Part shown: positions 5,587-37,624 of the stretch, in pieces | Layout of the letters: each line of letters starts with the position of its first letter | Numbering within the stretch: the stretch's first letter is position 1 | DNA from: Halorussus halophilus | GTDB lineage: Archaea > Halobacteriota > Halobacteria > Halobacteriales > Haladaptataceae | Assembly: GCF_008831545.1 (NCBI RefSeq) | Contig: NZ_CP044523.1 | Location: 124,001-188,000 of the forward strand | DNA length: 64,000 bases | Direction of reading: 5' to 3' | Notes under the pieces: model-generated | Database searches by the model: none | What the model was told of the DNA's origin: nothing | Seen by the model: the letters and a program-made list of their open reading frames with translations, nothing else | Made by a program: the position numbers and the translations under genes

Positions 5587-6006
5587 TCACGTCAAGATAG
5601 CGAACTCGACGTGAACCACGGTCTGATTGAACTCGATGTAGTAACCAGACGGGTAGTTGCTGGAATTTCTATCTTTGGGGAAGTAGCCCGGCAACCTCGC
5701 GCGGTCTTCTTTCATCTTCTCAACCTTGCTTTCCGGGACAGTGACGACTGATCTCCCTGACTTGTTGACGGCCTTCCGAACCGCCTTTTTTATATACTTG
5801 TTTGCCTGCACTCGGCTATCAGTGTACGCAACAACGGTAGCGTTTGGTGGTGCTTCTGAAACTACTTCTGCCGTTATTTCACCATCTCCGGTACTGGGGT
5901 TAGATTCACTTCCATTCGCAGGCGACTTGCTTAGCTGACTTGTCATACACCCTGGCATAGGTGCAATGATAACCAAAAAAACAACAGCTATGGAGGACTT
6001 TTTCAT
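5587..6006 (-). CDS. Small lipoprotein, AT-rich
   Basis: The 139-residue protein begins MKKSSIAVVFLVIIAPMPGC, a bacterial-style lipoprotein signal with a lipobox ending in Cys 20, followed by a Ser/Pro/Gly/Asn-rich linker and a small C-terminal domain (about 50-139) with no motif I know. Unlike most haloarchaeal lipoproteins it has no twin-arginine pair, so export would be by Sec. Base and codon use is clearly AT-richer than the flanking genes, as is the adjacent protease, suggesting joint acquisition. A TATA-like ATTTTTATC lies about 20-27 bases before the start, so it may have its own promoter even though it lies 39 bases after the protease gene. Confidence 0.72.
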   Translation of the reverse strand: MKKSSIAVVFLVIIAPMPGCMTSQLSKSPANGSESNPSTGDGEITAEVVSEAPPNATVVAYTDSRVQANKYIKKAVRKAVNKSGRSVVTVPESKVEKMKEDRARLPGYFPKDRNSSNYPSGYYIEFNQTVVHVEFAILT

Positions 6007-6045
6007 GTAATATACAACCTGTCAGTGATAAAAATATCTTGTGGC

Positions 6046-7194
6046 TTACACCCTTACGTCTAAGACTTCTTCGGCCCACGCCATAATATCTCCTCTGGCT
6101 TCATCGAAGGTACCATCCCCGTCATCGTCGATAGATGCGTGATTGATTCCAGCGATGAGCGCGAGGTTGTCTGTTGTAATGTGGAAAAATGGGCCTCCAG
6201 AATCACCTCCTTTCACATTGTGGTCGATTTTAACTCGTTCTGGTGAGTTTGTTTTGACACCGAGGATTTTCCCAGTATTTCTTCCTGTTGTTCTCCCTTG
6301 TTGATAAAGGGACTCCCCGTTTGAATGCATGTCTTTAAGTTTGTCACGGCTGAGTACCCCAGAAACCTGCCATCCGTACGAACCATTTTTATCTGCTATA
6401 TTGTAGGAATTGTCAGGTCCGCTACTGACAACTGTTCCGAGGTCGCCGTTCCCTTTCTGGGTATATTGACGACTCTCGCCGATTTTGTTTGAGCCAATTA
6501 AAGGATTTTTTGGCTGATGAACATTATTGCCTGCTGTCCTATTGATACAGTGTCCAGCTGTAACCCATACTTGGGAGTTGTCTTGTAGTGCGGTCGCTGG
6601 AGTGCCTAAGGTACAACAGCACTCGTTACTGAGTCCCATCTGAACACCGCTCGGAACTGGTCTGTAATTCGAATTGAAGGTCGCTTGTTCTTTAGCACGA
6701 GATTTGTGAACCGTGACTTTCAGGTCAGTCGTTTTGTACTCTTTCCCATTTGACGTCACCGAACCGTCAGTACGTGATGGTACTGCTTCCTTAACCTTCT
6801 CGAACGAAATATTCGGTGTACTCTCTGTTCCATCTGCGTGATGAACCTCGTAATAGTGGACCGCGATTCCTAACTCGGAGTCGCTTGACGAAACCTCTAC
6901 CTCGATAAAGGGTTCGGATGTGAACCGTCTACTGATTCTTGTCGCAGCGTTGTGAACTGCTTCAGTTCGTGCCCACTCATCTCGCGGAATAGTATAGAAC
7001 CTCGGCTCTCGTTCCGGAACTGCATTGTTTGAAACAACTTCTTTGTGATTAGTGTGGACGAGTCCGAGAAGTCGGGGAACTTCTTTTTCAGGATTAGAGG
7101 TAACTGCCGCAAGTGCGTCTTTTGAGATGTATTCTAGTGCGGCACCACTCAGACCGAGGCCCGCCAACGTGTTCAGAAATCACCGCCTTCCCAT
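6046..7194 (-). pseudogene. Chymotrypsin-like serine protease with TGA inside its Tat signal
   Basis: From ATG 7194 the reading is M-G-R-R-stop-F-L-N-T-L-A-G-L-G-L-S, a twin-arginine signal (RRxFL plus hydrophobic stretch) in which the x codon is TGA at 7182-7180. After the stop the frame is open to 6046. The mature part keeps a complete S1-type triad: His in TAGHC, Asp in GDLG and Ser in GDSGGP (codons 215, 251 and 332 counted from the ATG), plus a CCC cluster before the His. About 150 residues of propeptide-like sequence precede the protease domain. An internal TTG at codon 10 could start translation but would remove the twin arginines. The simplest reading is a recent nonsense mutation (for example CGA to TGA). 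Readthrough, a sequencing error or cytoplasmic initiation are alternatives. The gene is AT-rich relative to the chromosome. Confidence 0.8.
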
Positions 7195-7363
7195 TTGCGT
7201 AAGTTCTTTTGTTCGAACCATACAAGCCAGATTGAAACGATACTAATTAAATCTTTCTAACTATATTATATATAATTCAATTCACTTCTTCCGAACTCTT
7301 TGATATAGAGAATGTACTGTATGTGAAAAAACAGCAATTTCGCTGTACGTGCTATTCGTCTAC
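7195..7363. other. AT-rich spacer upstream of the protease
   Basis: No gene is seen. The stretch is very AT-rich; on the minus strand AAAGATTTAATTAG (about 7240-7255) could be the protease promoter, some 50 bases before its ATG. Confidence 0.4.
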
Positions 7364-7568
7364 TTCAAATCCCTTCGTAACCGCTTCGCTCCTCACCTAC
7401 GTTCGTCGCAGAAGCGGGCTGGAAGGGATTTGAACCACCTGAAGACGCTTCCCCGCCTCCGGCGAGACTGCCTCTTCCGTAGTTCAAATCTTCCAGCGTT
7501 CGAAATTCACGACTCGCGGAATTGGCGAGCGTACGAGACGCTCGCCGTGTTGCTCGTCGTAGAATGTA
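7364..7568. repeat. Fragments of the tRNA-Lys 3' end in both orientations
   Basis: CGGGCTGGAAGGGATTTGAACC at 7415-7436 is an exact 22-base copy of the 3' end of the adjacent tRNA-Lys (7569-7590); allowing one inserted A the match runs on through CCTGA. A 13-base inverted copy of the T-arm (TTCAAATCCCTTC) lies at 7364-7376, and a further imperfect copy (TTCAAATCTTCCAG) near 7484. Such partial copies beside a tRNA are the expected scar of site-specific integration and imprecise loss. No integrase gene is present nearby. Confidence 0.6.
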
Positions 7569-7642
<74 letters not shown>

Positions 7643-7666
7643 TCGAATCAGTTTTGCGCGCCACGA

Positions 7667-7676
7667 GGGTTAAACC
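7667..7676. promoter_or_regulatory. TATA-like box between tRNA-Lys and the peptidase gene
   Basis: GGGTTAAACC sits 25-34 bases before the mature tRNA 5' end on the minus strand, the right distance for its TATA box. The neighbouring TTTACTATC (7677-7685) might serve the divergent peptidase gene. Confidence 0.5.
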
Positions 7677-7734
7677 TTTACTATCTCGCGCGTCCAGCGC
7701 AACCTTTACCGCACCGCCGTCGGTCGAAACGACC

Positions 7735-9045
7735 ATGAACGACTTCGCTGACTACGACGCTGACTTGCGGGCGTTCGTCGAAGACCTGCTTTGCTTCGAC
7801 ACGACCGGCGGCGAGGAGGCACCCGCAAACGAGTGGTTTCGCGAGCAGTTGGACGCGATGGGCTTCGAGACCTACGCGTGGACTGCGGATGCAGACGAAC
7901 TCTCCAGCCACCGCTCGTTCCCAGACGACCCCGCGGAAATCGCGGTCGAAAATCGCCCCTCGGTCGGTGGCGTCCTCGAATTCGGGGACCCCGACGCCGG
8001 ACCGACGCTCGTGCTGAACGGCCACGTAGACGTGGTGCCAGTCGCCCGCGAGTCGTGGTCGAGCGACCCCTTCGAACCGGTCTGGCGCGAAAGCGACGAC
8101 CAGAACGACGACGGTGACGAGAACAACGACGACACCGAACCCACTCTCACCGCTCGCGGTGCGGCCGACATGAAGTCCGGTCTCGCGACCTGCGTCTTCG
8201 CGGCGAAACACCTCCACGACTCCGACCACGACCTCGACGGCCGACTCGTGGTCGAGAGCGTCGTCGGCGAGGAAGCGGGCGGCATCGGCGCGGCCGCGGC
8301 CGCCCAGTCGAACCCCTATCCCTTCGAGCGCGACGCCGCGATTATCGCGGAACCGACCGAACTGCGACCTATCGTCGCCTCCGAGGGAAGCCTGATGAAG
8401 CGACTCAAGCTTACGGGGCGCTCCGCCCACGCCGCGACTCGCTGGCGGGGCGTGGACGTACTACCGTACTTCGAACAGATACGCCGCGAGTTCGCGTCCC
8501 TCGAATCGGAGCGCGGCGAGTCGGTGAACCACCCGCTCTACGAGCGGTTTCCCGTGCCGTGGCCTGTCGTGGTCGGCCGCGTCGAAGCCGGAAGTTGGGC
8601 CTCCTCGGTGCCTGCCGAACTCACCGCGGAGTTACGCATCGGGGTCGCGCCGGGCGAGACAGTAGTCGAAGTCGAAGCGCAGTTCGAAGAGCGACTCGCG
8701 CAACTCGTCGCCGACGACGAGTGGCTCGCGGAGCATCCACCGGAGTTCGAACGCTTCTCGATTCAGTTCGAAGCCTCAGAAATCGACACAGACGAACCAG
8801 TCGTCGGCGCGCTCCAGCGGGCGATGGAGGCGAACGACCTCGCCGACACAGACCCCAGAGGAGCGACCTACGGTGCGGACGCGCGCCACTACATCGAGGC
8901 TGGAATTCCAACTGTGATGTTCGGCCCCGGTAGCATCGAGCAGGCGCACTTCCCTGACGAGACGATTACGTGGTCCGAGGTCCTGACCGCTGGGGAAGTG
9001 TTGAGTGGTGCGGCGAGAGAATTCTTGAGCGAGTCCTCGACCTAA
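7735..9045 (+). CDS. M20 family metallopeptidase / ArgE-DapE-type deacylase
   Basis: Zinc-dependent amidohydrolase of 436 residues. LVLNGHVDVVPV carries the first metal His-x-Asp, GAADMKSG the bridging Asp, and VVGEEAGG the catalytic Glu-Glu. The dimerisation or lid domain follows (about 220-340), and a late GADARHY and FGPGS-IEQAH complete the active site. Members hydrolyse N-acyl amino acids or small peptides (acetylornithine deacetylase, succinyl-diaminopimelate desuccinylase, carboxypeptidase G2); the exact substrate cannot be told. A low-complexity acidic insert (DDQNDDGDENNDD) is a halophilic surface loop. ATG 7735 is chosen because upstream in-frame codons run toward the tRNA and promoter. 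It reads divergently from tRNA-Lys. Confidence 0.9.
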   Translation: MNDFADYDADLRAFVEDLLCFDTTGGEEAPANEWFREQLDAMGFETYAWTADADELSSHRSFPDDPAEIAVENRPSVGGVLEFGDPDAGPTLVLNGHVDVVPVARESWSSDPFEPVWRESDDQNDDGDENNDDTEPTLTARGAADMKSGLATCVFAAKHLHDSDHDLDGRLVVESVVGEEAGGIGAAAAAQSNPYPFERDAAIIAEPTELRPIVASEGSLMKRLKLTGRSAHAATRWRGVDVLPYFEQIRREFASLESERGESVNHPLYERFPVPWPVVVGRVEAGSWASSVPAELTAELRIGVAPGETVVEVEAQFEERLAQLVADDEWLAEHPPEFERFSIQFEASEIDTDEPVVGALQRAMEANDLADTDPRGATYGADARHYIEAGIPTVMFGPGSIEQAHFPDETITWSEVLTAGEVLSGAAREFLSESST

Positions 9046-29544: not shown

Positions 29545-31188
29545 CTAGTCATCCCCCGAGACGGGTCCGTTGGACGCCGAAACCACGTCTTCGGCGCTCT
29601 GTTGCTGTCCCATGGGTTCCGGACTGTGACACTGCCGAACGATGCGTTTGATGCGCTCGGGTGGTTCATCGGTCACCAGCGAGACGCCGATGGTGACCGC
29701 GAACACGATAGGGGTTCCCGCGAGCGCGGCACCGACCGCTGGGAAGATGTCGGCGTAGAGCGGCACGACCGGCCCCGCGTCGGTGGCGAAGATGAGTTCG
29801 TTGAACACCGCGGCGGTCCAGATGAGGAGTCCGGTCGTCATCCCGGCGAGCGCGCCTTCTCGGTTGGCGTTCTCCCACCAGAGACCGAGGAAGAACATCG
29901 GGAACAGCACGAGACCGGCCAGCGAGAACGCGAGTGCGACGAGTTCGCCGACGAGTGCTGGCGGGTTGAGTGCCGTGACCGTCACGATTGCACCCAGCGC
30001 GATGATAGTGAGCCGACCGATAATCAGCTGTTGGCGCTGAGTCGCGTCGGGGTTGATGATGTTCGTGTAGATGTCGTGTGCGGCCGCAGACGACGCGGCG
30101 ATGAACAGGCCTGCCGTCGTCGCGATTGCGGCGGCGATACCGCCTGCCGCGACGAGGCCGACGAACCACGTCGGAAGGTTCGCAAGCTGTGAGGCGAGGA
30201 CGACGATGACGTCACCCTCTGCACCGCTCATTCCATTCGCGCCGTAGACCTGACCGACGTTGTTGGCGTAGAGGTCCGTTCCGAACGCCGCGAACGCAGG
30301 CGCACTCAGGTAGAGCAGGCAGATGAAGAACAGTCCCCAGACGGTGGACCAGCGAGCGGTCCGTTCGCTCTCGACGGTGTAGAACCGGACCAGCACGTGC
30401 GGAAGCCCACACGTCCCGACGATGAGCGAGAACGCCGTCGCAATCCAGAGGTAGTAACTGCTGCTACTGAACGGTTCGGTGAACTCCGAACTGAGCGAAC
30501 TCAACAGCGCGCCGTACTCGATTTGGGGCGCGAACGTCGAGTAGCCCTGCGTGAAGCCGACTGCGTAGAGACCAGCGAGGAACGCGACGATGAGGATGAC
30601 GTACTGGACTGCCATGTTCTTCGTCGCGCCGAGCATCCCCGAGAGCGCGAGGTAGCCGACGGTGATGGCCATCATGAGGACGACCATCGTGGTGTAGTCG
30701 CCGCCGAAGACGTAGATGCCGACCAGTCCCATGCCGCGGGCCTGTCCGACCGAGTAGACGAACCCGATGAGAATCGTCGTCAGCGCACCGATAGCACGCG
30801 CGGTGTCGGAGTTGAAGCGGTCGCCGACGAAGTCCGGCGCGGTGTACTTTCCGAACCGGCGCATCTGGGCGGCCATGAAGATGAGCAACACGAAGTAGCC
30901 CGTGGACCACCCGATGACGAACGCGAGTCCGTAGTAGCCCGACAGCGCGATGAGCGCGGCCATCCCGAGGTACGACGCCGCAGACATCCAGTTGGCTCCG
31001 ATAGCCATCCCGTTCTCGACGTTCCCGATGGAGCGGCCGGCAACCCACAGGTCGTCGGTGTCGGCCACGCGGAACGCGTACCCGATTCCCAGGAACAGCA
31101 GCAACATCCCCGTCACCATGATGGCGGGGACTATTTTGAACGAGGCGTTCAGCGCGTCCGGCAGTAGGTCGAGCGGTGTCAGCATCAT
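29545..31188 (-). CDS. Sodium:solute symporter, acetate type (large subunit)
   Basis: A 547-residue SSS-family (LeuT fold) symporter with about 13 membrane helices, N-terminal region DLWVAGRSIGNVENGMAIGANWMSAASYLGM and the conserved VGTCGLPHVLVRFYTV. It resembles ActP-type acetate permeases, and the acs gene just upstream supports a short-chain carboxylate as substrate, driven by Na+. The start ATG overlaps the DUF4212 stop (ATGA); a second ATG follows directly. DUF4212 is the known small partner of such symporters. Confidence 0.92.
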   Translation of the reverse strand: MMLTPLDLLPDALNASFKIVPAIMVTGMLLLFLGIGYAFRVADTDDLWVAGRSIGNVENGMAIGANWMSAASYLGMAALIALSGYYGLAFVIGWSTGYFVLLIFMAAQMRRFGKYTAPDFVGDRFNSDTARAIGALTTILIGFVYSVGQARGMGLVGIYVFGGDYTTMVVLMMAITVGYLALSGMLGATKNMAVQYVILIVAFLAGLYAVGFTQGYSTFAPQIEYGALLSSLSSEFTEPFSSSSYYLWIATAFSLIVGTCGLPHVLVRFYTVESERTARWSTVWGLFFICLLYLSAPAFAAFGTDLYANNVGQVYGANGMSGAEGDVIVVLASQLANLPTWFVGLVAAGGIAAAIATTAGLFIAASSAAAHDIYTNIINPDATQRQQLIIGRLTIIALGAIVTVTALNPPALVGELVALAFSLAGLVLFPMFFLGLWWENANREGALAGMTTGLLIWTAAVFNELIFATDAGPVVPLYADIFPAVGAALAGTPIVFAVTIGVSLVTDEPPERIKRIVRQCHSPEPMGQQQSAEDVVSASNGPVSGDD

Positions 31189-31613
31189 TGCTCGGACCCT
31201 CCATCGGAGGCAACTGCCCCGCTGTCACTCGTCGTCTTGGGCGTCGAGTGGTCGATGCCGTACTTCTCGTCCAGTTGGTCACGCTTGCGCGCGTAGATGA
31301 ACGAGAGGACGAGCGCACCGAGTGGCGCGCCGGTCGCGGTCAGCAAGTAGTGGAGCGGGAAGCCCAGCACCGTGATGCTCGTCATGAGGTCAGGTGCGAG
31401 ATACGTCGCCGTCACCGGACCGAAGACGATGAGCACCCACGCGGCGAACATCGTCCAGACGATTTTGAGGTGGTCCCGCATGAACGGGGTCGATGGCTTG
31501 AAGATGTTGACGCGGGCGTCGAGGTAATCGACGGTTCCGCCGTCGGTCTCGACACCGCCGTCTGTTTCGATATCGGTGCGACGCTCGCTACTTCGTGAGG
31601 TATTGTCTGCCAT
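31185..31613 (-). CDS. DUF4212 symporter small subunit
   Basis: A 142-residue protein with an acidic N-terminus and two membrane helices (about 50-72 and 85-108), with the typical FPLHYLLTATGAPLGALVLSFIYARKRDQLDEKYG. DUF4212 proteins accompany SSS permeases as a small subunit. Start codon 33 bases after the acs stop; stop overlaps the symporter start. Confidence 0.9.
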   Translation of the reverse strand: MADNTSRSSERRTDIETDGGVETDGGTVDYLDARVNIFKPSTPFMRDHLKIVWTMFAAWVLIVFGPVTATYLAPDLMTSITVLGFPLHYLLTATGAPLGALVLSFIYARKRDQLDEKYGIDHSTPKTTSDSGAVASDGGSEQ

Positions 31614-31646: not shown

Positions 31647-33644
31647 TCAGTCGTCCGTTACCGACGCCGCGATGTCGTCCACGACGTCCGGGTTTCGAAG
31701 GGTCGAGGTGTCGCCTAACTCGTCGCCGTTGGCGATGTCCTCCAAGAGACGGCGCATAATCTTGCCCGAGCGAGTTTTGGGGAGTTCGGGCGTGAACACG
31801 ACGGACTCGGGGCGAGCGATTGGCCCGATAGCGTCTTCGATTCCACCGACGATGTTCGACCGTAGTTCTTCGTTGCCGTCGTAGCCGTCTTCGGTGATAA
31901 CGTAGGCGTAGACAGCCTCGCCTTTCACCTCGTGGTCGCCGCCGACGACTGCCGCTTCGGCCACGCCTTCGACACCGACGATGGCACTCTCGATTTCCAT
32001 GGTGCCGAGACGGTGGCCCGAGACGTTGAGAACGTCGTCTACGCGGCCGAGGACGGTGATGTAGCCGTCGTCGTCTATCTTCGCGCCGTCTTCTGGGAAG
32101 TACACCCAATCTTCCATGTCATCTGAGTCGGTGTCGGAGTACTCGCGCCAGTACTCGTCGATGTAGCGTTCGTCGTTCTTGTAGAGCGTGCGAAGCATCC
32201 CCGGCCATGGCTTCTGGGCGGTCAGGTAGCCCGCCTTTCCGGGGTCAACTTCGTCTCCCTGAGCATCGACAACCTGCACGTCTAGACCCGGCAGAGGTGG
32301 TCCCGCACTGCCGGGTTTCATGGTTTTGACGCCAGGGAGTGTCGTAACCATCATGCCGCCAGTCTCTGTCTGCCACCAGGTGTCCACGATGGGGCAGGAC
32401 TCGTCACCGATGTGCTTGTAGTACCACTTCCACGCGCGCGGGTTGATAGGTTCGCCGACAGTGCCGAGCAAGCGGAGCGAGGAGAGGTCGTGTTTCTCGG
32501 GGTACTCACTGCCCCACTTCATGAACGCACGAATCGCGGTCGGGGCAGTGTAGAGTTGGTCGGCTTCGTACTCTTCGACGATTTCCCAGAGGCGGTCACG
32601 TTCGGGGTAGTCAGGCGTCCCCTCGTACATCATCGTCGTGGTGCCGAGTGCGAGCGGCCCGTAGACGATGTAGGAGTGGCCCGTAATCCAACCGATATCT
32701 GCCGAGCAGAAGTACGTGTCCTCGGGCTTGATATCGAGGACCGCCTGAGAGGTCCATGCGGCCCAGGAGAGGTAGCCACCAGTCGTATGTTTGACACCCT
32801 TGGGTTGACCAGTCGTGCCCGAAGTGTACATCAAAAAGAGCATGTCCTCGGCGTCGCGCTGGACCGGTTCGACAGTCTCGCCCTCCTGTTCGGCGACGAG
32901 GTCGGCGTAGGAACTCTGGTTGTCGGCGAGATCGTGCCCGAAGCCGTCGCCGTCACGGAGTCGCTCGACTACGACTGCGTCGGAAACCTCGTGTTCGACA
33001 CCGGCAAGGCCTTCGTTGGCCTTGTCGAGATGGTCGAGCGGGTCGCCGCGGCGGTAGTAGCCGTCGCAGGTGACCAGATACTCTGAGTCGGCGGCGTTCA
33101 TCCGCGTGGCGAGTGCGTCCGCCGAGAACCCGGCGAACACCACGCTGTGGGGCGCACCAATTCTGGCACACGCCAACATGGCGATGGGGAGTTCGGGAAT
33201 CATCGGCATGTACATCGTCACGACGTCGTCCTCGCCAACACCCATCTCCTGTAAGGCGGCGGCGAACTCGTTGACCTCCCGATGCAGGTCTTCGTAAGTG
33301 TAGGTACGATTCTCTTCCTCGACTGGTTCGCCGACCCACTCGATGGCGGCCTCGTCGCCGCGCTCGTCGAGGTGGCGGTCGAGACAGTTGGCCGAAGCGT
33401 TGAGTTTGCCGTCGGTGAACCACTCGTAGAACGGCGGGTTCGAGGCGTCCAGGACCTCGTCGTAGTCGTCGTCCCAGTCGAGCAACTCGGCCGCTTGTTC
33501 CCAGCACTCTGGCCAGTTCTGTTCGAACTCGTCGTAGATGGACTCGTCGGAGACGTTCGCCTGTTCGACGAACTCCGCCGGTGGCTCGAACGCTTCCTGT
33601 TCTTCGAGCCGTGCTTCGAGTTCTACGTCGTCTTCGTCACTCAT
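31647..33644 (-). CDS. acs: Acetyl-CoA synthetase
   Basis: A 665-residue AMP-forming acetate-CoA ligase of normal length. Visible signatures: the ATP loop YTSGTTGQPKGV, the core motif WWQTETGG, GRVDDVLNVSGHRLGT hinge, and the catalytic, acetylatable Lys in PKTRSGKIMRR near the end. It converts acetate, ATP and CoA to acetyl-CoA. First gene of the operon leading into DUF4212 and the symporter, so uptake and activation are coexpressed. Its N-terminus has the usual extended acidic stretch. A close paralogue lies 2 kb upstream. Confidence 0.96.
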   Translation of the reverse strand: MSDEDDVELEARLEEQEAFEPPAEFVEQANVSDESIYDEFEQNWPECWEQAAELLDWDDDYDEVLDASNPPFYEWFTDGKLNASANCLDRHLDERGDEAAIEWVGEPVEEENRTYTYEDLHREVNEFAAALQEMGVGEDDVVTMYMPMIPELPIAMLACARIGAPHSVVFAGFSADALATRMNAADSEYLVTCDGYYRRGDPLDHLDKANEGLAGVEHEVSDAVVVERLRDGDGFGHDLADNQSSYADLVAEQEGETVEPVQRDAEDMLFLMYTSGTTGQPKGVKHTTGGYLSWAAWTSQAVLDIKPEDTYFCSADIGWITGHSYIVYGPLALGTTTMMYEGTPDYPERDRLWEIVEEYEADQLYTAPTAIRAFMKWGSEYPEKHDLSSLRLLGTVGEPINPRAWKWYYKHIGDESCPIVDTWWQTETGGMMVTTLPGVKTMKPGSAGPPLPGLDVQVVDAQGDEVDPGKAGYLTAQKPWPGMLRTLYKNDERYIDEYWREYSDTDSDDMEDWVYFPEDGAKIDDDGYITVLGRVDDVLNVSGHRLGTMEIESAIVGVEGVAEAAVVGGDHEVKGEAVYAYVITEDGYDGNEELRSNIVGGIEDAIGPIARPESVVFTPELPKTRSGKIMRRLLEDIANGDELGDTSTLRNPDVVDDIAASVTDD

Positions 33645-33804
33645 GCGCTAAGTTCACAACCCGCAGGTGATTACATAAGTGATGTCGCTAACTATACCAA
33701 GCGTCCGTTTTCACGCTACAGTGGTCCTAAAACTTGCTTTCCGGCAATATCTCCCGAACGAACAGACGCAGTGAACTCGCTGTTGCGGCCGAGAGGCTAA
33801 GCAC

Positions 33805-35565
33805 TTAGTGTCGTCCGGCGTCGGCCGACTGGTGGTCGGTCTCCTCGAACGCACTGTCTAGCAGTTTCTGCTGGGCCTTCCGGAGGTGATTGTGCAGGGT
33901 CGGCGACGACACGCCCATCGACGCAGCGAGTTCTTCGGCCGTACTGCCGCGAGGCCACTCGAAGTACCCCGCGAGGTAGGCGGCCCACAGGACCGTTCGC
34001 TGGCGCTCCGTCAGGCGGTCGTGAATCGTCTCTCGGACGCGGACGCCGCTCCCATTCGGTGCCTCGACCTCGCGCTTCGAGCGCAGCTCCGTCTCGGGGA
34101 ACGCCTCTTCGACGGTCTCGACGACGCTCCGGACGTCTACGTGCTGTGAGAAGACGCCGGAGGCGTCGAGCACGCCCGACTCCACCGAGAGTTCGCGGAC
34201 GTTTCCGCCGCGCTCGACGAGGACCGTCGCGAGCGACTCGCCAGAAACGGCAAATTCGAAGAGTGCGTCGTCCCCGTAGTCACGGATGAGGCGAGCGTCT
34301 TCGACGGCGTCCGTGGCGGTCACGCAGTCGAGAACGTCGCCGACTGCGGCCCCACTCGCCGTCACGAAGTACAGTAGCGAGTGGTCTTCGACGGGGACGA
34401 CGCCTTCGAGCGCGAACTGACAGTCGAGTTCTGCGGAGGCGGCGACGAGAAACACGCCGTGATCCGTGCTCCGAAACGACAGCGAGACACCAGTGTCGGT
34501 CAGGAGCAATCGCTTGCGCGTGATGGCGGTCAAGGTAGCGCCGACGCGCCGACCGACGTCCGCGAGAAACGTCCGGTCTACCGAGCGAAACGAACTGTCG
34601 GCCACGCAGGCGATTCCGTGGACGTTTTCGCTCGACTGGAGCGGGGTGACAGCGAACGAACAATTAGAGAGGGGACCATCGGCTGACGTTCCGCCGACGA
34701 TAGTCACGTCGGGGCCGTCTTCCTCGTCTACTACGTCCGCCGCGTCGAGAACGTCGCTCGGAACGTCGCTAGTGGCTCTGGCCGGGACCGAACTCGTCTG
34801 TGTGACCCCTCGTTCGTCGCACAGCCAGACGCCGCGATACAGGTCGGCGAGATGTTCACACGCGGCCGTGAGTACGTCTTCGTCCGTGGATGCTTCCGCG
34901 AGCGTCTGGCCCAAGCCCTCGGCGCAGGTCAGGAGTTCGGTACTTCGGAAGTATCGCTCGTTCGTGAGACGTTCGTCACGTCCACTCGCACGTCCTTCGC
35001 GGTTTCCGCGGCCCTGCGCCTGGTTCTCGAAGGCGTCGATAATCGTCGTCGTCGTCGGAGTACTGTAGTACCGCGCGAGACTGTCGAGGCTCTTCCAGCC
35101 GCCGACAGACTGCACCACTCGTGGACTGAGCCCTTCGTTGACGAGGTGTCGCCACGCGAAGTGCTTGCGAAGGTCCCGACACGTCACGTAGTGAAGGCCT
35201 TCAACTCGGTCTGCGACGTCGCTCACGAGCATCTGGACGCGCCGAGACGAGACGCCGACGAACGGGTCCTGTCGAGACACGTCGTTCGAAGCAGCGAACT
35301 TGCGAAGGTCGTGGGCGACTTCGCGTGGGACGTACGCCTCGCGGGTGTCGCCGTCTCCTTCGGGAACCGTGAGACAGTAGAAACACTCGCCGTCGCGTTC
35401 GTGTTCGCGGAGGTCCGTGGGACGAACTGCGGTCAGTTCCGAGGGTCGGAGTCCGACTCGTCCCGCCATCGCCACGACGAGGTCCTCGCGGTAGGTTTCG
35501 GTCGCGCGACGGAGGCGCTCGTACTCCGTCGTCGTTAGAAACTCGTCGGTTGCCTCGCCGTCCAT
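33805..35565 (-). CDS. Bat-type regulator with N-terminal tyrosine-recombinase domain
   Basis: A 586-residue chimera. Residues 1-180 look like the catalytic domain of a tyrosine recombinase: GLRPSEL (Arg 40), TCRDLRKHF (Arg 133, but Arg 130 where His is usual), GGWKS (Trp 157) and RYY (Tyr 166/167). A GAF-like domain (about 200-365) and the bacterio-opsin-activator-associated domain follow, ending in HTH_10 (about 520-575: LTERQRTVLWAAYLAGYFEWPRGSTAEELAASMGVSSPTLHNHLRKAQQKLL). It is probably a DNA-binding transcription factor, with the recombinase fold perhaps used for binding only. It lies between two acs genes on the same strand, so acetate metabolism is the likely target. This is inference. 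Confidence 0.88.
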   Translation of the reverse strand: MDGEATDEFLTTTEYERLRRATETYREDLVVAMAGRVGLRPSELTAVRPTDLREHERDGECFYCLTVPEGDGDTREAYVPREVAHDLRKFAASNDVSRQDPFVGVSSRRVQMLVSDVADRVEGLHYVTCRDLRKHFAWRHLVNEGLSPRVVQSVGGWKSLDSLARYYSTPTTTTIIDAFENQAQGRGNREGRASGRDERLTNERYFRSTELLTCAEGLGQTLAEASTDEDVLTAACEHLADLYRGVWLCDERGVTQTSSVPARATSDVPSDVLDAADVVDEEDGPDVTIVGGTSADGPLSNCSFAVTPLQSSENVHGIACVADSSFRSVDRTFLADVGRRVGATLTAITRKRLLLTDTGVSLSFRSTDHGVFLVAASAELDCQFALEGVVPVEDHSLLYFVTASGAAVGDVLDCVTATDAVEDARLIRDYGDDALFEFAVSGESLATVLVERGGNVRELSVESGVLDASGVFSQHVDVRSVVETVEEAFPETELRSKREVEAPNGSGVRVRETIHDRLTERQRTVLWAAYLAGYFEWPRGSTAEELAASMGVSSPTLHNHLRKAQQKLLDSAFEETDHQSADAGRH

Positions 35566-35704
35566 TCTGTTTCGTCCTTTCCGAGAAAGACGAATAAATA
35601 TTCGGGATTCGCTCCTGAATTCTGCCTCGCGACGCTACACCCTCTCTGAAAGCACACCAGTCACGAACCGACGACGTTTCGCGCTCTTAGAAAGAAACGA
35701 ACTA

Positions 35705-37624
35705 CTACTCGTCGAGGAGTGATTCGAGTTCGCCGACGATTTCCGGATTGCGGAGCGCGCTCGTGTCGCCAAGGTCCTCGCCGTTCGCAATCGCTTCGAG
35801 GTAGCGCCGAACGACCTTTCCCGAGCGCGTCTTCGGCAACGACGGTGCGAAGGTGACCGTGTCGGGTACCGCGATAGCCCCGATAGCTGACTCGACGGCC
35901 TCTCGAACGCGCGCTCGAAGGGCCTCGTCGCCTGCCACGTTCGACGCCGGACTCACGAACGCGTGGATTTCGGACCCTTTGATGGCGTCCGCCCGCCCGA
36001 CGACGGCGGCCTCCGCGACGCCTCTGACTCCGATGATGGCGCTCTCGATTTCCGTGCTACTCAGTCGGCGACCCGAGACGTTGAGAACGTCGTCGGCCCG
36101 TCCTCGGAGGTGGAAGTATCCCTCGTCGTCTCTGACGGCCTTGTCACCGGTGTCGTACTGCCACTCGCCATCGACGGTCCTCGTTCGCCGAGCGCCCCAG
36201 TCGGTCCCCTCACAGAGCGATTGGGCCATCCCCGGCCACGGTCGGGTGAGGACCAGTTCTCCCGACTGTCCGGCCTCAACTCGCTTGCCCATCTGGTCTA
36301 CGACGGCCGCCTCGACACCGGGAAGACTCCGGCCGACCGCACCGGGACGCATCGAATCGACGCCGGGGAGCGTCGAGAGGACGACGCCGCCCGTCTCGGT
36401 CTGCCACCACGTGTCCACGACCGGACACTCGCCGCCGCCCACGTGTTCCCGGTACCAGCGCCACGCCGTCTCGTCTATCGGTTCGCCGACAGTGCCGAGC
36501 AAGCGGAGCGAGGAGAGGTCGTGGCGCTCGGGGTACTCGCTGCCCCACTTCATGAACGCCCGAACGGAGGTCGGTGCCGTGTAGAAGACGTTGACTTCGT
36601 TCCGTTCGATGACTCTCCAGAGTCGGTCTTTCTCCGGATGGTCCGGCGTCCCTTCGTACAGCACGGTCGTCGCACCGAGCGCGAGCGGGCCGTAGACCGC
36701 GTAGGAGTGGCCCGTAATCCAGCCGACATCGGCCGAACACCAGTGGACGTCGTCCGGCCCGAGGTCGAACACGGCGTGACTCGTCCACGCCACGTGCGCG
36801 AGGTATCCACCAGTCACGTGCCTGACCAGCGTCGGCTCGCCCGTCGTTCCGGACGTGTAGATGAGAAAGAGGAGGTCGTCTACGTCACGTGCGACCGGTT
36901 CGACTTCGGTGCCCTCGTTGGCTTCGACCACGTCGCTGTAGCGGTGGTAGTCCCCAGCAGGCGACTCGGCGTCGAGTCGGTTGACGACGACCTGCTCGAC
37001 TGGATACTCGACGGAGAGACAGGCGTTGTCGGCCATGCGCTTCAAATCGAGCGCGGTGCCTCGCCGATAGTAGCCGTCGCAGGTGACGAGATACTCCGAG
37101 TCTGCGCCCTCCATTCGAGTCGCCAGCGCGTCCGCCGAGAATCCGGCGAAGACGACGCTGTGCGGTGCGCCGATGCGCGCACACGCCAGCATCGCTATCG
37201 GGAGTTCCGGCACCATCGGTAGATAGACCGTGACCACGTCGTCCTCGCCGACGCCGAGGTCACGTAAGCCCGCCGCGAACGCGTTCACTTCGTCGTACAG
37301 TTCCCGGTACGTGTAAGTCCGCGTCTCGTCGAGTTTCCCCTCCCAGACGAGGGCGACTTCGTCGCCGCGACCGGCCGCTACGTGCCGGTCTACGCAATTG
37401 TACGACGCGTTCAGTCGCCCGCCGGGGAACCAGCACGTCGCGCCGTCGTCGTCTACGACCGCGTCGAACGGGCGGTCCCAGTCCAGTAACTCGGCGGCCC
37501 GCTCCCAACACGCTGGCCAGCCCGCCGCTCGCAAGGACTCACAGTCGCTCGCGGTGACGTTTGCCCCTTCGGCGAACGACGATGGCGGGTCCACCCCGCC
37601 GCGTTTTTCACTGCCGTCGGCCAT
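35705..37624 (-). CDS. Acetyl-CoA synthetase paralogue
   Basis: A 639-residue AMP-forming acyl-CoA synthetase very like the acs gene 2 kb away: YTSGTTGEPTLVRH loop (the usual Lys is replaced by Leu-Val), WWQTETGG, GRADDVLNVSGRRLSS, and the Lys in PKTRSGKVVRR. It is shorter by some 26 residues, mostly in the region after WPGMAQSL. It probably activates acetate or propionate. It precedes the Bat-type regulator on the same strand, 139 bases apart. High identity of many blocks points to duplication, but DNA has diverged widely. Confidence 0.93.
   Translation of the reverse strand: MADGSEKRGGVDPPSSFAEGANVTASDCESLRAAGWPACWERAAELLDWDRPFDAVVDDDGATCWFPGGRLNASYNCVDRHVAAGRGDEVALVWEGKLDETRTYTYRELYDEVNAFAAGLRDLGVGEDDVVTVYLPMVPELPIAMLACARIGAPHSVVFAGFSADALATRMEGADSEYLVTCDGYYRRGTALDLKRMADNACLSVEYPVEQVVVNRLDAESPAGDYHRYSDVVEANEGTEVEPVARDVDDLLFLIYTSGTTGEPTLVRHVTGGYLAHVAWTSHAVFDLGPDDVHWCSADVGWITGHSYAVYGPLALGATTVLYEGTPDHPEKDRLWRVIERNEVNVFYTAPTSVRAFMKWGSEYPERHDLSSLRLLGTVGEPIDETAWRWYREHVGGGECPVVDTWWQTETGGVVLSTLPGVDSMRPGAVGRSLPGVEAAVVDQMGKRVEAGQSGELVLTRPWPGMAQSLCEGTDWGARRTRTVDGEWQYDTGDKAVRDDEGYFHLRGRADDVLNVSGRRLSSTEIESAIIGVRGVAEAAVVGRADAIKGSEIHAFVSPASNVAGDEALRARVREAVESAIGAIAVPDTVTFAPSLPKTRSGKVVRRYLEAIANGEDLGDTSALRNPEIVGELESLLDE

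Follow-up and report, generated by a model that had tools for sequence, protein, structure and literature searches.

The window analysed here is a stretch of 64,000 nucleotides from Halorussus halophilus (contig NZ_CP044523.1, positions 124,001 to 188,000), and all genes and sites of the locus described below are on its minus strand. A gene at 33805..35565, with an ATG start, encodes a protein of 586 amino acids that is predicted from its open reading frame, Pfam matches and a structural model to be a regulator in which a recombinase-like domain is joined to GAF, BAT and HTH_10 domains. It is flanked by two acs paralogues, an acs8-like gene upstream (35705..37624, 639 amino acids) and an acs7-like gene downstream (31647..33644, 665 amino acids), the latter followed by genes for the DUF4212 subunit of a symporter operon (31185..31613, 142 amino acids) and for a sodium/solute symporter resembling the acetate transporter ActP (29545..31188, 547 amino acids).

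From the N-terminus, the regulator comprises a tyrosine-recombinase-type catalytic domain (residues 9–182; 35020..35541), a GAF-fold sensor domain (residues about 200–355; 34501..34968), a BAT domain (residues 357–506; 34048..34497) and an HTH_10 DNA-binding domain (residues 518–569; 33859..34014). Pfam matched Phage_integrase to residues 9–168 (E = 1.8e-8), BAT to residues 357–506 (E = 1.4e-41) and HTH_10 to residues 518–569 (E = 6.9e-21); the NCBIfam model XerA matched residues 7–169 (E = 1.1e-12), under that model's own cut-off, and PHROG integrases matched the protein with E = 2.4e-12. The GAF region has no Pfam match in this copy; its assignment draws on the full-length predicted model, in which residues about 200–355 match the GAF structures 5hl6 (Z 14.7) and 3p01 (Z 15.0), and on GAF Pfam models that match up to nine of 27 relatives. 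BAT and HTH_10 were both present in all 27 family members, and the HTH_10 recognition region is nearly invariant across the family. A preliminary description of this DNA had proposed a recombinase fold at residues 1–180 fused to a GAF-Bat-HTH_10 module, and both proposals were borne out, the GAF part by predicted fold and the remainder by Pfam.

The AlphaFold model of residues 1–183, built on 27 relatives, has a mean pLDDT of 91.8. The comparison with XerD/Cre-type recombinases that had been suggested gave XerA as the top match (5hxy; Z 19.2, rmsd 3.4, 167 residues aligned), with further matches to XerH, an integron integrase, Cre and phage integrases; Cre, XerH and HP1 Int scored Z 15–17. Interspersed among the enzymes were phage repressors with a recombinase fold, namely SroF of phi3T (Z 14.8–14.9), YopR (13.4–13.5) and MrpR (12.9), the last two from SPbeta. 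MrpR-like repressors were absent among the 50 Foldseek matches listed and were found in a second structural comparison; PDB entries 8A0A, 8BPZ and 9RGL were assigned to the MrpR/YopR/SroF repressors by title. As modelled, the N-terminal domain is a true tyrosine-recombinase catalytic fold. Chance similarity to a recombinase was rejected, given that fold, residues and fusion are conserved across the order and that the fusions form one clade.

The window copy retains R40 (Arg I), E43, R133 (Arg II), W157 and Y166, and has R130 at the His II position; the preliminary description had correctly listed R40, R133, W157, a tyrosine and the arginine in place of histidine, and was silent on the missing beta-hairpin lysine and the missing core-binding domain. 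Y166 is the first of an adjacent pair, Y166–Y167, and aligns with the conserved tyrosine of the family and, ungapped, with the XerA nucleophile; the position of Y167 is leucine in most relatives. The protein begins only a few residues ahead of the catalytic domain, and an overlooked upstream core-binding domain was discounted, there being only 23 further codons in frame before a stop. Some recombinases, including stand-alone relatives of this domain, likewise have no core-binding domain.

Among the 58 fusions of the set used for the tree, Arg I is present in 55, the glutamate and Arg II in all 58, and the tryptophan in 55. The beta-hairpin catalytic lysine, by comparison, is found in none of the 58 and in all 21 stand-alone relatives; His II is histidine in three fusions (and lysine in one) versus 21/21; and the nucleophilic tyrosine is present in 46/58 versus 18/21, with at least six losses on the tree. 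The hairpin turn where the lysine formerly stood has gained up to about 30 residues at loci L004, L011, L038, L071 and L074. In a separate alignment of 57 relatives, which includes the regulator of the window, the lysine is likewise missing throughout, His II is histidine in three and Arg II is always present, and the likely DNA-facing residues R75, R108, R109 and R133 are invariant. Since the lysine, nearly all histidines and, repeatedly, the tyrosine have been lost, the residue patterns indicate that the fused domain is very probably a dead recombinase.

The closest unfused relatives are proteins of about 200 residues that consist of the catalytic domain only and keep R-E-K-H-R-W-Y, with Arg II and the tryptophan also in 21/21. 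In a tree of 79 rows inferred by maximum likelihood, from which L075, the duplicate L082 and rows shorter than 140 residues had been left out and in which some long branches were flagged among stand-alone rows, the 58 fusions form one side of a branch with support 100/99, and five stand-alone proteins stand beside this clade (100/98). Loss of the lysine maps as a single change coincident with the fusion branch. Because this loss coincides with fusion, the tyrosine has been lost repeatedly and the stand-alone relatives are catalytically complete, the pattern of active-site loss, as read from the alignment, is that of an enzyme recruited as a non-enzymatic part. The loci L101–L125 encode stand-alone tyrosine recombinases of this size with complete active sites, several per genome in some haloarchaea. 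A viral source for the stand-alone sister group was considered and dropped; the one halovirus integrase that matched had only 30% identity, and viral contigs held no relative.

Searched with the N-terminal-domain profile, 306 of 392 haloarchaeal genomes gave a match at E ≤ 1e-10; the fusion can be no commoner than this, since stand-alone proteins are counted too, and by these sequence comparisons it is of old origin and occurs widely among haloarchaea. Gene order was compared at 40 loci picked from the better profile matches across ten families, seven of the first loci (L002, L003, L014, L017, L018, L019 and L030) having been left out of all counts as duplicates or broken frames. Inspection of relatives, another suggestion of the preliminary description, found the fusion conserved across the order; at 40/40 loci its gene comes immediately after a co-oriented acs gene. 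A downstream acs gene follows in 38 (L046 runs into the end of its contig and L073 has no acs there), and DUF4212 and symporter genes in 37, the exceptions being L037, L046 and L050. Locus L050 keeps the order acs-regulator-acs, with an aldehyde dehydrogenase-like gene in place of DUF4212 and the symporter; L037 also lacks both. Among 59 related genomes, the symporter was present in 31 of the 34 that carry the fusion (N-terminal domain at E ≤ 1e-57) versus one of the 25 that do not. That one genome, G021, keeps the DUF4212-symporter pair, and acs, regulator and acs promoter element are absent there; its symporter (locus L167) is 93% identical to that of the window, and the locus looks like a natural deletion. 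In another genome, G002, the regulator region occurs twice, near both ends of contig C1 (L014 and L030), with the frame broken near residue 50 in one copy and near residue 490 in the other, through decay or assembly error.

A Haloferax lucentense plasmid carries the order acs-regulator-acs-DUF4212-symporter-Usp. In H. volcanii, acs7, HVO_A0155, ssf and uspA are described as a single acetate-induced transcript and acs8 as HVO_A0158 (excerpted text of PMC7746861). Judging by the gene numbering between the acs7-HVO_A0155 operon and acs8, HVO_A0157 should be the H. volcanii orthologue of the regulator. This gene is named nowhere in the mostly open-access literature searched; searches of it turned up no such regulator of an acetate locus, and the word 'regulator' is absent from two papers on acetate activation, PMC7746861 among them.

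Between the upstream acs gene and the regulator lies an inverted repeat, consensus RTTTCG-N15/16-CGAAAC, that is mostly present twice; the preliminary description had advised a search for inverted repeats at the acs promoters, and those found here lie beside the acs genes. In the window, candidate operator O1 (AGTTCG-N16-CGAAAC; 35676..35703) immediately follows the end of the upstream acs reading frame, and candidate operator O2 (TATTCG-N16-CGAAAC; 35569..35596) adjoins a TATA-like stretch, TTTA, and is separated by 3 nt from the regulator ATG, the two centres being 107 bp apart. Across loci, O1 comes after the acs stop codon, O2 and a TATA-like box overlap, and only a few bases separate O2 from the regulator ATG. 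With at most one mismatch allowed over ten positions, O1 was found in 34/41, O2 in 34/41 and both in 28/41 promoters of the first set, compared with shuffle means of 2.5, 0.8 and 0.04, these controls having used patterns picked after viewing the same 41 promoters; in the second set of 40, which alone is independent, the unchanged pattern found O1 in 35, O2 in 23 and both in 21. Within the regulator gene itself, the opening 220 nt contained no copy at any of the 41 loci. In 782 kb there are 37 perfect repeats; 33 of them fall within the 220 nt before a regulator gene and two more are of O1 type, farther away. A divergent fusion in genome G380 has two copies upstream with one mismatch apiece. 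A short form of the repeat has 76 matches in the window's own genome and is therefore not informative alone. The repeat is absent from the stand-alone recombinase loci (25 loci, L101–L125, L110 being a fusion); repeats carrying one mismatch or none in L103, L115 and L123 seem fortuitous, and those of L110 belong to the fusion. A link between the repeat and the stand-alone proteins was rejected, the copies outside L110 being chance-like, and the repeat is therefore not established as an ancestral recombinase site.

The centre distances of O1 and O2 at 57 loci cluster at 77, 85–87, 95–99, 104–109 and 117–123 bp, and a small number measure 130, 140 or 152 bp. At a period of 10.5 bp the phase concentration R was 0.83 for the first 28 pairs, 0.73 for 21 new pairs and 0.61 for eight further pairs that are mostly from the window's family. 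With one value per sequence cluster (n = 30), R was 0.70, a value reached by none of 20,000 jittered draws, with a best period of 10.8 bp, although this figure is overstated because the clusters are still related. The paired sites are spaced in phase with the DNA helix. At L035 and L038, left out of the spacing test as their O1 lies beyond −200, an O1-like repeat stays at the acs stop codon, 270–400 bp from O2 and off phase, which speaks against a fixed loop. Haloferax has the same locus with the same sites and therefore makes the system testable in a tractable organism.

An element of a different kind, TTNNNATARTTAG-N8-TATA, is conserved at the downstream acs promoter. In the window it reads TTGGTATAGTTAG as the upstream element, then N8 and CTTAT as the TATA part (33675..33700), and this is the sole match in the window at three or fewer mismatches. 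Across loci the element takes the form TT-N3-ATA-R-TTAG or variants of it, N8 and a TATA-like stretch, with its TAG 44–49 nt upstream of the acs ATG in nearly all loci and 55 nt in L070. A relaxed version of the pattern matched 37 of 39 promoters versus a shuffle mean of 0.01; L046 and L073, which have no adjacent downstream acs, were left out of this count, and L043, which the relaxed version missed, was left out of the column table. A CTAAC core may be shared with the Bat element of bop and was not used as evidence. A genome-wide regulon was also sought; one perfect and nine two-mismatch matches in the window's own genome compare with 15 for the reversed pattern, and no wider regulon is therefore claimed. 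Classes of the element covary with HTH_10 residues (E/L versus D/I,V), a covariation that proves little because it tracks one deep phylogenetic split. The promoter of the upstream acs gene, just above 37624, has GAAC-N-TTTAT/TTTTT around its TATA box, unlike the downstream element; this motif was found in 16 of 41 upstream-acs promoters versus 0.02 in shuffles, and resembles the left flank of O2.

Our favoured reading, to which we give a probability of about 0.6, is that the protein is a one-component regulator of acetate uptake and activation with two DNA-binding heads, an exapted recombinase domain and HTH_10. The N-terminal domain would derive from a stand-alone tyrosine recombinase, would have lost its chemistry and would now serve in DNA binding and self-association. 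The GAF-BAT middle may sense a signal linked to acetate or redox state; HTH_10 would bind TTNNNATARTTAG beside the TATA box of the downstream acs gene and presumably activate the acs-DUF4212-symporter operon; and the recombinase-like domain would bind O1 and O2 and so control the regulator's own promoter, the two sites perhaps being held together in a small loop resembling a recombinase synapse. It is probable that an ancient enzyme of mobile DNA was recruited as a regulator, since a fold seemingly deprived of the chemistry for cutting DNA occurs in a protein whose gene lies behind a conserved pair of inverted repeats. Several observations count against our favoured reading: the stand-alone recombinase loci are without the repeat; the O1-like repeat of L035 and L038 lies 270–400 bp from O2; R-E-R-R-W-Y is kept in most fusions, beyond what mere DNA binding may require; and O2 was missed at the stringency used in 17 of the 40 second-set loci, many from one family.

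The preliminary description had suggested that a recombinase fold near the acs genes might bind a repeated site or actually rearrange DNA there. Inverted repeats do stand beside the acs genes; the rearrangement, by which an active recombinase would invert or excise the promoter segment between O1 and O2, is very improbable. The window copy does have R40, E43, R133, W157 and Y166, and about 107 bp are flanked by two inverted repeats. Against this, the lysine is absent from 58/58 fusions and the histidine from 55/58, on at least six occasions the tyrosine has disappeared although the gene persisted, and the core-binding domain is missing, whereas the stand-alone relatives keep the full catalytic set; further, no inverted O1–O2 segment was found among eight comparable pairs, all eight having the same orientation. 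Programmed promoter inversion was rejected on the active-site decay and these orientations. The recombinase-like domain might instead be a dimer or tetramer scaffold that reads no DNA, with HTH_10 binding both the inverted repeats and the acs element. Bat proteins are known to bind DNA through HTH_10, whose near-invariant recognition region is paralleled by an equally conserved repeat, and half-sites two turns apart would suit any dimeric HTH protein. A mere scaffold would have no need of the four arginines, likely DNA-facing and invariant in 57/57, however, and the two types of element have no evident common half-site, which suggests two readers; we regard the scaffold as doubtful, yet the most serious of these competitors. 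That the repeats are sites of another, unlinked regulator of this gene, with the protein acting at the acs promoter only, would fit their absence from stand-alone recombinase loci. This we consider unlikely, as 33/37 perfect copies in 782 kb are directly upstream of the regulator gene, even the divergent G380 fusion has its two copies there, and gene-specific, order-wide palindromic sites on a gene's own promoter are typical of autoregulation.

A more specific and tentative form of our two-headed reading, which we hold as a possibility short of even odds, is a dead recombinase that still synapses. Dimers of the domain on O1 and O2 would pair as in Cre/Xer without cutting, making of the promoter of about 100 bp a helically phased loop that GAF-BAT opens or closes according to acetate metabolism; the downstream acs operon would be driven by HTH_10. 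If so, what was once a recombination synapse would now act as a metabolic switch throughout an archaeal order.

The architecture itself is known: a review of tyrosine recombinases in archaea lists family fam30-04, which combines Phage_integrase, BAT and HTH_10, in some members with GAF_2, and by this combination is the same family as the window's regulator (Badel et al., 2021; PMC8371274). The listing there defines a recombinase family by domain content and does not give active-site loss, acs gene order, operators or a regulatory role. That a recombinase can become a repressor has been described as well. In MrpR/YopR of the Bacillus phage SPbeta and SroF of phi3T a recombinase fold has become a DNA-binding repressor that no longer recombines and has a repeated target element (parts of PMC10516654 covered); our regulator shares the fold and the loss of catalytic residues, and would share the binding of a repeated element, its candidate operators being predicted from sequence. 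According to the same parts of that source, MrpR has lost recombination and uses its tyrosine for DNA binding; by analogy, such a use may explain why the tyrosine is often retained in the fusions. MrpR differs in having core-binding and catalytic domains and no sensor fusion, whereas our regulator lacks the core-binding domain and is fused; in keeping the lysine and tyrosine and losing Arg I, whereas the fusions keep both arginines and lose lysine and histidine; and in serving viral lysogeny rather than acetate metabolism from a chromosome or plasmid. Bat, the bacterio-opsin activator of Halobacterium, shares the GAF, BAT and HTH_10 module and an element 5′ of its target, its regulatory site lying 5′ to bop (PMC1447603), but has PAS/PAC, no recombinase domain and other target genes and element (excerpts of PMC3184054 and PMC1447603). 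The archaeal dif recombinase XerA (5hxy, 4a8e) has the same catalytic fold and the same Arg I, Arg II and tyrosine positions, but possesses a core-binding domain. XerA is an active enzyme with a full catalytic set. No such case of mobile-element recruitment in prokaryotes appears in the portions of review PMC8987985 covered. As far as our searches show, the link to the acetate locus, the history of the active site and the paired operators are new.

The other recombinase-fold regulators that turned up here (MrpR, YopR and SroF) are from phages, whereas the fusion is predicted to be a metabolic regulator kept across haloarchaea. A catalytically complete stand-alone protein of the ancestral type survives in related genomes, and the step from enzyme to regulator is therefore traceable residue by residue. 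For the haloarchaeal acs-symporter operon that acetate induces, the analysis further supplies a candidate regulator together with its putative DNA sites.

Elsewhere in the window, G+C drops to 0.50 at 6001–8000 by comparison with about 0.63 around it, and a minus-strand open reading frame of 373 amino acids in this region, possibly acquired, carries GHC and GDSGGP motifs and is presumably trypsin-like.
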